In this document: positions 31,357-34,516 of the stretch, piece after piece | Layout of the letters: each line of letters opens with the position of its first letter | Position numbering within the stretch: position 1 is the stretch's first letter | NCBI GenBank assembly: GCA_019752015.1 | Contig: JAIEMQ010000026.1 | Location: forward strand, 1-60,619 | Direction of reading: 5' to 3' | Length of the DNA: 60,619 bases | From: Cyanobacteriota bacterium | GTDB lineage: Bacteria; Acidobacteriota; Vicinamibacteria; Vicinamibacterales; UBA2999 | Translations under genes and position numbers: made by a program | Notes under the pieces: generated by a model | Seen by the model: only the letters and a program-made list of their open reading frames with translations | Databases searched by the model: none | What the model was told of the DNA's origin: nothing

Positions 31357-33255
31357 TCAGAGAGCGTCGCTAACTTTATTGCGCTTCGGCGTATGCCGCG
31401 CGGGCCATCGCACCGGCGTTGGTCGCATTTCCAAACTCTCCGGATACTGCGGCGCGATTTCGGCGATCACCGCCGCGACCGCATCGTCGATCGACTTCCC
31501 TTCGCGCTTCAACGCGCCGACTCTTGCTTGCACCGCTTGAATGAACGCGCGATCGCGAGCGATCAGGGCGGCATCGCCAAGCTGGCCGTGACTCGGGACG
31601 ACGTGGAGAGGTTTGAGAGCGGTCAGCTCGTCGAGGACGGATAACCACGTTTTGAGACTCGAGTTGTTCTGCGCCGCGAGAAAGCGCTGGCTCATCACCA
31701 CGTCGCCGGTGAACAGCACTCGATCTTCCTCGACGAACACCATCGTGTCGCCGCGCGTGTGCATCGCCGACGGTCCCCGCCAGAACAGCCGCACGTGCAC
31801 GCCGCCCAGATCGAGACGATGCTCGCGATCGAACAGGATGTCCGGCGTCGGATACGGCACTCCGCTCAGCAGCTCTTTGTTGAGAACCGATCGGCTGGCG
31901 AAGGTGTCTTGGATGCCTTTGCCCAGCTCGGTCATGTCCTGCTGCTGCATTTTCGTCATCACCAGCTTCGCGCCGGTGAACGCGCCCGCACCAAGCGAAT
32001 GCTCCGGGTGATAGTGCGTCGTCACGACGTAGACATCCGCGTTGCCGCTCACCGTCTTCATCTCGCGGACGATCGCCTCGCCGTTTCGGGGACCGAGACC
32101 GGTGTCCACCACCAGCGTGGCCGTGCTGCCGACAATGATGCCGACGTTGGGGACCAGGCCGACGTTGAAATCCGGGATCGCCCAGACGTGATCGGCGAGC
32201 TTGACAGTGGCGTTTTCGCGAATCAATGGCGGTGGTGGAGTGGCGCCGCCCGCAGGCGCCTGCGCGGTGGCGGACGCGATCGAACACTCCGCAAAGAACG
32301 GAGCGTAAGGTTCCCTCGCCTTCTCGTCCATGTGATCGAACAGATATTTCCGCGCCTCGCAGACCTGGCGCGCGTGCGCGTCGCCCTTCGCCAGCGCGGC
32401 GACGACGTCGAGCGTGCCGATCGGCTGCTCGCCGTTCGGACAGCGATAGAAGCGGCGGTTGCCGTCGGTCGTCGCGGTGACTCGAGTTGAACCGCACGAG
32501 ACGGTGACGAACGGATCGTCGACGTTCAGATCCCATGGCCGATGCGCCCGCACCGCCATGGTGCTTTCGAGAACGGTGCTCGGCTGAAAGAACCCGTGCG
32601 TGTCGGTCAGCAAGTTCGATCGCCCCGGGACGCGGGCTCCAGCCATCCACGGTGCGGGTTGATTCGGCTGGTGGCACGCCCCGCACTGATTGAGGCGGCG
32701 AAAGAACTCGCTCTCGGTCTTCGCTTCAGCGCTCGCGTTCGGGTAGAAGAGCGCGATCAAGCTGTCGGCGGCGCGGTCGTCGCTCGCATTGTCGATGCGA
32801 CGCCATTCGAAGCCGCTCAGGAGATCCGGCGATCGTCCCGCCACCGGCTGGTAGACATGGAAGAGCGTCCCGCCATCGGCGTCGATGGTGCCGCCGCGCA
32901 CATCCTCGATCCCGTTGATCGTCTGCAGCGCCTTGCGCTGGTTCCTCATCGTCTCGACACGATCGGCAATCGTGCCCGCAGGAAAACGCAGAGCGTGGCG
33001 CTTCTGATCGGCCAGCCAGTCCAGCGTGATCTTGCCGCCGTCCGGAATGCGGAGCCAGACTTTGATCAGGTTGTCGTTGCTGGTGTCCGACGGCAATCGC
33101 ACCGGCGGCACCATTTCAACGAATCCGGAGCGTCGCCAGAACGACTCGTCATTCGGGATCTCGACGGCCTTTAACCGGATGTCCTGACCGTGCGCGGGGA
33201 GCACGGCCGCCAGTAGCACCGGACACAGCCAGGGCAGCGATGTCGAGAATTTCAT
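31357..33255 (-). CDS. Secreted fusion of a c-type heme-binding region and a metallo-beta-lactamase-fold hydrolase
   Basis: 632 residues. A signal peptide (STSLPWLCPVLLAAVLPAHG) starts at ATG 33255. The N-terminal ~320 residues contain a CGACH heme c motif near residue 200 (LNQCGACHQPNQPAPWM) and no other fold I recognise. After a Pro-rich linker (GGATPPPPLI) the rest is a metallo-beta-lactamase domain with THYHPEHSLG (H-x-H-x-x-H), a GDTMVFVEEDRVLFTGDVV strand and SHGQLGD. Such N-terminal/MBL combinations are unusual; the protein should be periplasmic. A group II intron occupies its 5' leader, and the AGGA in front of its ATG lies in the intron's terminal hairpin. Confidence 0.82.
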   Translation of the reverse strand: MKFSTSLPWLCPVLLAAVLPAHGQDIRLKAVEIPNDESFWRRSGFVEMVPPVRLPSDTSNDNLIKVWLRIPDGGKITLDWLADQKRHALRFPAGTIADRVETMRNQRKALQTINGIEDVRGGTIDADGGTLFHVYQPVAGRSPDLLSGFEWRRIDNASDDRAADSLIALFYPNASAEAKTESEFFRRLNQCGACHQPNQPAPWMAGARVPGRSNLLTDTHGFFQPSTVLESTMAVRAHRPWDLNVDDPFVTVSCGSTRVTATTDGNRRFYRCPNGEQPIGTLDVVAALAKGDAHARQVCEARKYLFDHMDEKAREPYAPFFAECSIASATAQAPAGGATPPPPLIRENATVKLADHVWAIPDFNVGLVPNVGIIVGSTATLVVDTGLGPRNGEAIVREMKTVSGNADVYVVTTHYHPEHSLGAGAFTGAKLVMTKMQQQDMTELGKGIQDTFASRSVLNKELLSGVPYPTPDILFDREHRLDLGGVHVRLFWRGPSAMHTRGDTMVFVEEDRVLFTGDVVMSQRFLAAQNNSSLKTWLSVLDELTALKPLHVVPSHGQLGDAALIARDRAFIQAVQARVGALKREGKSIDDAVAAVIAEIAPQYPESLEMRPTPVRWPARHTPKRNKVSDAL

Positions 33256-34097
33256 TGGTAGATCCTGTCCTTTCACATCGAGATAGTCATCGGTGAAAGG
33301 GCAGGACCCCCTTTCAAACCGTGCATGCCGATTTCCGGCACACGGCTTACCGATGGTCTTCGAGACGTCGCATGCGCGGTACTGACGACGCCAGCGCGGA
33401 GCGCACCGCGGTCGTCACACCGCGGCCGCGCCAGCGCCGCCGGATACCGTTTGGCCGACGTCCACAGCTCGTGCGGAGGTTGTCGTGCGTTGGCGACCCG
33501 CGCGTGCGAGTCGTTGACGACTCGCGCGTGCGAGTCGGGGTGATTGGGTCCGGTCCTGCCGGCCATGCCCTTGCGCTTACCCTCGTTCCGAGCGCGACCA
33601 AAGCAGAGGCCCTTCCCTCCCACCCCGTTATTCGCCACGATGATCGACAGTACTACGGCCCCCTCGGACTCCCGCTGCGCACGACTCGATTTCGCCGGTG
33701 GCTTATACGAGTCGCGGTACCGCGACCACGGCCGCGCAGACGGGCCTCTCGTGTTCCGTTCGTCTCCCTGCACACGTGCTGCGCCCCATACCCCGCCGAG
33801 CCCTCGCGTGCGTACGCCCCCGGACCAGGGCACGCGAGACATCGCCTTCGCCGCGACATGACCGGCTCGGCGCTCGGATTGTAAATCTGACGAGGCTGCA
33901 GGCTTCACGTAAGGTTGCGGCCCGTGTGCTGGCTTCCTCCAAAGAGGCTTCTGACACCCCGCTCGGGCCGCCGCGCTCTCGCGCGCGACCTGGGGTCTGC
34001 TACTCGGCGCTCCGGCGCTTACCGAGACGGGACTTACACCCGCTGGAGACGAACAGCGTGATACCGACGATGACCGGTCGGCGTCGTCACGACGCAC
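33256..34097 (-). mobile_element. ORF-less group II intron
   Basis: On the minus strand the element starts with the consensus GTGCG at 34097. Domain I features follow: AGCGGGTGTAAGTCCCGT (around 34035) and GGGAGTCCGAGGGGGCCGTA (around 33670). Domain V is at 33316-33348: lower stem AAGCCGTG/CACGGTTT with the AGC triad, upper stem TGCCG/CGGCA, a GAAA-type loop and a TG bulge. Domain VI is the long hairpin between 33308 and 33261. Where the reverse transcriptase would lie (about 33400-33600) there is only a non-coding stretch, so the ~840-bp intron has no maturase. The 3' end is placed just before ATG 33255 but is uncertain by a few bases. Low-quality ORFs in this region are not genes. Confidence 0.78.
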
Positions 34098-34113
34098 CAT
34101 GCGCGCGATTATA
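34098..34113 (-). promoter_or_regulatory. TATAAT box and ATG at the intron's 5' exon
   Basis: On the minus strand TATAAT (34108-34113) is followed after 7 nt by ATG (34098-34100), and the intron's GTGCG begins at the next base. No good -35 is seen. It could be the original leaderless promoter and start codon of the heme/MBL gene, split by the intron. Confidence 0.4.
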
Positions 34114-34147: not shown

Positions 34148-34516
34148 ATGATGTCGAGCGACTTGATGCGGACCGTGGCTGTCTCAGCGCTGCTACTCGT
34201 TTTCGGGGCTTGGCCGGCATCCGCCGGACAACAGGCCGACCCGGCGCTCGACCGAATCCGGGCGGCGCTCTCGGCCATTGCGGAATCGCCCGCGATCGTC
34301 ATGACGCAACCGCCCGTCAGGTCATGGGGCGGCATGACGATGGTCCAGCCCGACACCGTCCGCGGCGAGTTTGTCCGCATCAAGGTGCCCGTCGGCGAAA
34401 TCACCATGAAGGCCGCGCGCGCGATCCAGAGAGCTCACTATCATCGCGCGGAGCGGAAAGCTCGCGAACGCGTCGACCGCGCGCTTCAGGACTTCATCAA
34501 ACAGCAGTCTCGATAG
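34148..34516 (+). CDS. Small secreted protein of unknown function
   Basis: About 122 residues. A signal peptide (MRTVAVSALLLVFGAWPASA) lies behind candidate starts ATG 34148, 34151 and 34166. The mature part is about 100 residues with an N-terminal helix, a Pro/Gly segment (TQPPVRSWGGMTMVQP) and a basic C-terminal helix (RAHYHRAERKARERVDRA). No family is recognised. It is divergent from the group II intron and convergent with the ADOP permease, whose stop lies 10 nt away. Confidence 0.6.
   Translation: MMSSDLMRTVAVSALLLVFGAWPASAGQQADPALDRIRAALSAIAESPAIVMTQPPVRSWGGMTMVQPDTVRGEFVRIKVPVGEITMKAARAIQRAHYHRAERKARERVDRALQDFIKQQSR

Follow-up and report, generated by a model that had tools for sequence, protein, structure and literature searches.

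The intron and its host gene

The window considered in this work is a stretch of 60,619 nucleotides (nt), viz. positions 1-60,619 of contig JAIEMQ010000026.1, and the element of interest within it is a group II intron lacking a reverse transcriptase, which lies on the minus strand at about 34097-33253, at the start of a gene for a protein with a metallo-beta-lactamase fold. Such an intron had been described here in an original prediction made from the sequence alone, and both the matches to Rfam models and the related introns in other genomes bear this out, as the sequence also does for the earlier positions of TATAAT, ATG, GTGCG, domain V, AGGA and ATG AAATTC. Because the relatives match, a chance origin of the window intron is untenable. 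Reading along the minus strand, a -10-like promoter element, TATAAT (34108-34113), which takes the form TAnnnT in the family, is located 7 nt before an ATG (34098-34100), within the 6-9 nt before a start codon by which a leaderless target is recognised here. This 5' ATG is the host start codon and is taken as the translated 5' exon and, together with C34101 and G34102, as the intron-binding site 1 (IBS1). The intron follows directly with GTGCG, which agrees with the GUGYG of group II 5' ends, and the 842 nt of it after the 5' ATG have AGGATCTACCA as their last bases, after which come a second ATG (33253-33255) and AAATTC. The element is 845 nt long (33253-34097) if it ends after this 3' ATG and 842 nt if it ends at 33256. 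The 3' ATG, which in view of the 3'-end pattern and the empty sites described below is likely carried by the intron, is the start of a Shine-Dalgarno (SD)-led reading, and an SD-like AGGA (33263-33266), kept in the aligned relatives, is present 7 nt before it. The earlier proposal that a leaderless-type start codon precedes the intron and that a second, SD-led one stands at its 3' end is supported by these features.

In the covariance searches for group II domains, the domain I core (34045-33910) is matched by RF02003 (group II D1-D4-4) with 78.2 bits (cut-off 49, E 2e-15) and the domain V/VI region (33350-33277) by RF00029 with 44.2 bits (cut-off 40, E 1.9e-5), both above the Rfam cut-offs; a smaller Rfam search gave, for a further part of domains I-IV (33897-33790), a partial match to RF02005 of 44.7 bits, which is below its cut-off of 49. 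The catalytic hairpin of domain V (33313-33350), identified from RF00029 and the alignment, is largely invariant across 11 sequences, and it is followed by the domain VI hairpin (33256-33311), for which pairing in the relatives suggests A33259 as the branch point. The window copy retains domains I, V and VI and in addition five base pairs, one of them G-U, between IBS1 and the proposed loop bases of exon-binding site 1 (EBS1), viz. CATGT at 33856-33860 with GCATG at 34102-34098. The host gene (31357-33255, minus strand) codes for a protein of 632 amino acids in which a half bearing a CXXCH motif is fused to the metallo-beta-lactamase fold (PF00753).

Extent of the intron family

In a nucleotide search with a limit of E 1e-3, 28 of 148 genomes besides the window's own (29 of 149 with it) were matched; the matches reached E 1e-11 or better in 16 of the 28 and were short and weak in the remaining 12. 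A second nucleotide search of the window's class found matches at E 1e-3 in 28 of 193 genomes, and few of the 12 weak matches, or of similar ones in this class search, were read for their flanks. Both of these queries included the RTG (ATG or GTG) in front of the intron, and two other searches were free of it. A domain I pattern containing neither intron end identified 20 loci in a collection of 84,980 species genomes, among them L092 in a bin titled Proteobacteria and L095 in one titled Deltaproteobacteria; most of the other titles name Acidobacteria, and the phylum was placed accordingly. A covariance model built on the initial 112 nt, which leaves out the RTG in front, matched in 9 of 396 genomes of the phylum; the members it added are three copies in genome G448 and single ones in G380 and in G283, and these genomes lie outside the window's class. 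Viral contigs searched with two patterns gave no match.

The resulting 39 members with readable, distinct 5' flanks include truncated copies, some of which (L063, L031, L057, L058 and L064) are cut to 5' fragments of about 94-215 nt that lie before or near other sequence. Signs of nesting or recombination are also seen, viz. a second GTGCGCC start in L055 near intron nt 455, a second reverse transcriptase in L052 and one of chimeric appearance in L048. Three of the 13 covariance matches (L226, L227 and L231; 47-58 bits) were taken as other intron families and left out of the 39; L226 and L231 have an ATG in front and no TAnnnT at 6-9 nt, and L227 has neither. In front of L226 and L231, the sequence reads CTAAC...AATG without a -10 element, which we take to be perhaps an attC-like core.

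A promoter-like element and a start codon in front of the intron

The 39 readable flanks follow a common rule. An ATG or GTG is present directly before the intron in all 39 (ATG in 34, GTG in 5), and TAnnnT is found 6-9 nt upstream of this RTG in 36 of them, at 6 nt in 18, at 7 nt in 15, at 8 nt in one and at 9 nt in two. In comparison, TAnnnT occurs at such spacing before 62 of 4319 RTG across the host loci, a figure in which the members' own sites are counted as well, and before 35 of 3318 RTG in the window; as it assumes independent copies, a binomial tail computed from these counts is not to be read at face value. The counting script required a TG before the intron, which the flanks as read from the searches did not, and when the sites were counted again without it, RTG was found at 35 of 35 readable sites, with one further locus whose flank is cut off; L031, L172, L224 and L225 fell outside this recount, as the stricter domain I motif is missing from them. 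The base at -4 is C in 31 of the 39 sites, and a weak enrichment of a -35 element is seen upstream, which 5 of 200 shuffles equalled.

The 5' RTG most likely stems from the host, because closely similar copies sit behind unrelated promoters or differ in the codon that precedes them. In genome G131, copies with identical first 55 bases are found at unrelated promoters (L086, L091 and L093; also L087, L096 and L098), and among the closely similar copies of G160, GTG is present in front of L167 and ATG in front of L168 and L169. One of these copies, L096 (also L272), interrupts a TauE-family coding frame (PF01925) behind a TACAGT-N7-ATG whose ATG is not a start codon. This insertion within a coding sequence shows that the intron can do without a real start codon, and the target is probably a promoter-like motif plus CATG rather than the start codon as such.

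These observations bear on two other explanations of the rule. It could result from selection instead of targeting, if the introns landed on any CATG and were lost except at leaderless start codons, which allow the intron protein to be made and the host gene to go on being translated; the open frame 0 and the AGGA-N7-RTG retained at the 3' end, both described below, would be in keeping with this. However, the truncated and ORF-less (lacking an open reading frame) copies L031, L063 and L172 obey the same rule, as does L096 away from any start codon, and in the recount not one of the 35 sites was without RTG. We therefore consider selection of this kind to be decidedly unlikely. According to the other explanation, a ribonucleoprotein (RNP) reads TAnnnT plus CRTG as plain DNA, by EBS1 pairing and a protein contact, with no part played by transcription. 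The site of L096 within a coding sequence and the prevalence of C at -4, as an EBS1 of CAYG asks, are what such recognition predicts. However, the spacing varies freely, as in the choice of a transcription start site and unlike in rigid protein contacts, and both the weak -35 enrichment and the leaderless-type promoter conserved in intron-free relatives at two host loci point to promoters; in our judgement, this explanation, the chief competitor of an opened promoter, is possible but doubtful.

Proposed pairing of a loop with the target

A loop carrying CAY pairs with the RTG at -1 to -3 in 19 of 19 members in which it was found, and the pairing extends to -4 in 16 of them. The pattern used for finding the loop itself requires CAY, so that the figure of 19 of 19 follows in part from the search; of the 34 members searched, 15 gave no loop match, nine of them having less than 200 nt of intron and six (L031, L057, L058, L063, L064 and L172) having lost the region. 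In a free alignment, CAT or CAC is present at this loop in all 13 sequences, and matching changes are seen in L048 (AATG with CATT) and L051 (CGTG with CACG). Covariation at -3 to -5 is weak beyond what conservation gives (45 paired cells versus a shuffled mean of 42.4, fraction 0.023). From the loop and its pairing we infer that it is EBS1. Another candidate, the loop GCCAGNNCGCGGG, was rejected, as inspection by eye found no common pairing of it with RTG. A pairing of 4-5 bp is unable to choose such sites alone, and the promoter must therefore be recognised in some further way; an opened promoter would fit both the free spacing and the invariance of three positions in the -10 element.

Empty sites in related genomes

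If the intron has inserted behind a start codon, then in relatives lacking it the upstream region should join the gene at that codon, and this is what was found at two other loci of the family. In G131, a 5' flank (L171) and a 3' flank (L204) are present at two contig ends; as these flanks are adjacent to each other in relatives, they are apparently the two sides of a single insertion. Their host gene encodes hexapeptide repeats (Pfam) and is presumably gamma-carbonic-anhydrase-like; in 5 of 5 intron-free relatives a single ATG or GTG is found 6-7 nt after TAnnnT, with codon 2 directly next to it. The host gene of the second locus, L063, codes for a class I tRNA synthetase (Pfam), which we take to be the valyl enzyme (valS). 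Here, the promoter and ATG are kept and are followed by an intron remnant of 94 nt, and then by ATG and codon 2, the remnant placing a GGAG site before the valS ATG. Among 21 intron-free valS orthologs, TAnnnT is found 6-9 nt before the start codon in 18 and within 6-11 nt in 20. In this bacterial order, valS (L122-L146) mostly has a conserved leaderless-type promoter, usually TGATACSAT followed by 7-9 nt and ATG. Leaderless genes were found in all three Acidobacteria genomes analysed in a published survey, at an average of 13.3 percent (PMC3160421). For the gene of L052, 4 of 13 orthologs have TAnnnT 6-9 nt before a possible start, and in two more the spacing is 5 or 10 nt. The matches to the host protein of the window that were listed from 42 other family genomes cover only the metallo-beta-lactamase half, and no empty site was found among them.

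Domain VI and the 3' end of the intron

The right arm assigned to domain VI by the Rfam match (CTATCTCGAT) is probably a chance fit and was set aside, as another arm is conserved in 11 sequences. This conserved arm reads GTAGGATC-U-A-CC, with one bulged A, and in the window CAGGATC-U-A-CC, with the A at 33259. It forms a helix of 11 positions, at each of which 8 to 11 of the 11 sequences are paired (pair 51-86 is A-T, G-C or G-T) and within which the A is unpaired in all 11; the pairing was proposed by eye on these same sequences. A branch point is expected at the seventh base from the intron end. With the final RTG counted as part of the intron, the bulged A takes this place and the AY rule fails; with this RTG as a target duplication, the distance of the A is four. 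It is more likely that the RTG belongs to the intron. A 3'-end pattern in which the first base of the start codon was left free found 25 places in 16 of 193 genomes, 24 with ATG and one with GTG, and the reversed control gave one match; an open frame of at least 100 codons begins at the 3' RTG in 18 of the 25, versus 450 of 1405 ATG anywhere in the window. Some of these 25 places, in which domain V cannot be recognised, may be eroded copies or due to chance.

An element with such an end could act without splicing, as a 5' leader that starts at the RTG in the RNA and provides the host gene with a ribosome-binding site. The variable first two bases (G1U2), the missing 3' AY and the tiny 5' exon would all be in keeping with this, as would deletion derivatives such as L063, of which only 94 nt are left, with GGAG before the valS ATG. 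However, domain V, the bulged A of domain VI and the EBS1-IBS1 pairing are conserved, and relatives retain an intron-encoded protein (IEP) with a maturase domain, and we judge a non-splicing element to be unlikely.

The encoded protein and its reading frame

Intact copies of the intron encode a reverse transcriptase/maturase. The protein of L050 matches TIGR04416 with 410 bits and contains RVT_1 and GIIM, and a domain search found no endonuclease domain in it; the nearest solved structures by sequence are 7uim (E 2e-53) and GsI-IIC 6ar1 (5.3e-53), of which 7uim is presumably likewise a IIC protein. In L046, L050 and L178 the frame from the host RTG is open from intron nucleotide 1 through the ribozyme into the reverse transcriptase. 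The same is true of L053, where the protein is internally shortened, and of L048, whose reverse transcriptase looks chimeric, and in L232 and L233 (G448, outside the class) the frame continues without a stop as far as the contig end. In an alignment of 11 sequences, frame 0 contains no stop codon, whereas column shuffles gave a mean of 5.6 and reached zero in 1 of 500; frames 1 and 2 are not depleted of stops, and the differences in length within domains I-III of the aligned sequences are multiples of three. It is likely, from these frames, that the reverse transcriptase of the main lineage is translated from the host start codon. A constraint on the amino acids of the ribozyme-encoded stretch is not supported, with substitution rates of 0.204, 0.219 and 0.211 at the three codon positions, and no conservation of the amino acids is seen in this part. 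In the window, the frame opened by the 5' ATG (33273-34100) stays open almost throughout the intron to a TGA at 33275-33273 and is, judging by the relatives, what is left of the frame that there leads into the reverse transcriptase.

Interpretation of the element

We consider it likely that the element in the window has lost its ORF and comes from a family of mobile group II introns whose members insert directly behind the start codons of genes with leaderless-type promoters. The site rule, the empty sites, the CAY loop facing the RTG, the conserved domain VI with its bulged A and the CTACCA-RTG end, on which this interpretation is based, are read directly from the sequences. The RNP would reverse-splice into the coding strand where a promoter is open or able to open, by means of CAYG-CRTG pairing. 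As the intron would end with an RTG of its own, splicing would restore the ancestral leaderless mRNA, and an unspliced RNA would still be translatable from the 3' RTG. In full-length copies, translation of the reverse transcriptase would begin at the host start codon and run on through the ribozyme, and the window copy, whose protein has been lost, would need a reverse transcriptase in trans. A more far-reaching proposal is that the family represents a further target specificity, in which retrotransposition occurs into an open promoter bubble, an EBS1 of CAU (the triplet of the initiator tRNA anticodon) seizes the leaderless start codon, the reverse transcriptase is translated from the captured start through the ribozyme, and the 3' end of the intron returns an SD site and a start codon to the host; we put it forward tentatively, as it falls somewhat short of being probable.

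The original prediction had interpreted the two starts as a regulated switch, in which the splicing state selects between leaderless and SD-led translation of the host gene. Both starts do exist, and if splicing occurred after each ATG, the host frame would be preserved. However, the host genes vary among the copies, and no sign of a sensed signal was seen; a switch is in our view very improbable, and damage limitation explains the two possible starts more simply than a switch of a single gene does.

Several observations weigh against an intron that splices, targets leaderless genes and is read through from the host start codon. At the 5' end, the first bases of the intron are GTGCG in 29, TCGCG in 6, GAGCG in 3 and GTGTG in one (GTGYG in 30 of 39), and variation of the first two bases is odd for a working 5' splice site; a 5' exon of 3-4 nt would also be extreme. 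At the 3' end the AY rule fails, as had been suspected from the imperfect fit in the window, and the relatives end in CTACCA-RTG, although 3' AY is a consensus with published exceptions (PMC4424553); further, L048 alone, with ATG at its 5' and GTG at its 3' end, separates a 3' RTG owned by the intron from a target duplication. As to the sites, TAnnnT is missing before L046 (TGGAAT), L049 and L223, and L096 lies within a coding frame. Among the valS orthologs, the closest relative, L122, has a spacing of 11 nt and L137 one of 10 nt, and L141 has no such element; three of four orthologs of the L060 host gene look SD-led or unclear, and those of the host genes of L047 (four) and L046 (three) are not clearly leaderless. 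The reading frame is affected as well: domains I-III show no codon-position bias, and frame-0 stops occur in the GAGCG copies (216), L235 (219), L234 (378) and L052 (390), due to which read-through is not universal; the frame is also broken in L054 and L055.

Relation to known systems

Individual features of this family have counterparts elsewhere. In the c-di-GMP ribozyme of Clostridioides difficile, which belongs to another intron class (group I), splicing moves a ribosome-binding site; the intron at the groEL stop codon of Azotobacter sits at a codon boundary of a gene, at its other end; the IEPs of yeast aI1/aI2, in mitochondria, are read in frame from the upstream exon; and Ty3 lands at transcription starts, those of yeast Pol III genes. 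Class C (group IIC) introns likewise have an IEP without an endonuclease domain and a short EBS1-IBS1 pairing; however, they insert after intrinsic terminators or at attC (PMC4424553), whereas the sites of this family, which were read for the -10 element and RTG only, consist of a promoter-like element and RTG. The ORF-less introns of Thermosynechococcus elongatus have similarly lost the ORF from domain IV and are mobilised in trans by related IEPs, and one family of them lies between two start codons of an intron ORF, but no promoter rule is described for them in the sections drawn on here (PMC2882425). In C.te.I1 of Clostridium tetani, annotated start codons of downstream ORFs are located in D5/6 motifs and are removed by splicing, but this is a single locus with four D5/6 motifs, alternative splicing and a full gene as 5' exon (PMC3919590). 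RmInt1, whose IEP also lacks an endonuclease, reverse splices into transiently single-stranded DNA, which there arises from the replication fork and not from a promoter (PMC8914252). Three target specificities of bacterial group II introns, viz. homing sites, terminators and attC, are named in a 2015 review (PMC4424553), and the present family points to one beyond these, tied to the start of transcription and of translation. Among open-access titles and the beginnings of abstracts, with subscription papers mostly outside the search, no start-codon-lodged introns of this kind were found. With this family it can be tested how promoters are read by a retroelement, how introns persist in essential genes such as valS (where only an eroded copy was seen) and how a gene passes from leaderless to SD-led translation.

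Other intron sequences in the same genome

In the genome bin of the window, a single fragment matching TIGR04416 was found (36.9 bits, cut-off 300) and no match to RVT_1. Contig ends C49 and C13 of this genome carry parts of related introns, and a helper protein for the window intron may therefore lie in unassembled sequence. The relative on C49 (about 34360-34486) is truncated at its 5' end, starting about 7 nt after TAGAGT with the RTG missing, beside a divergent regulator-like gene. Three more group II domain V matches with different 3' ends are present at contig ends (C1:31-105, C63:52-126 and C65:20960-21034), and these are probably repeated introns that broke the assembly.
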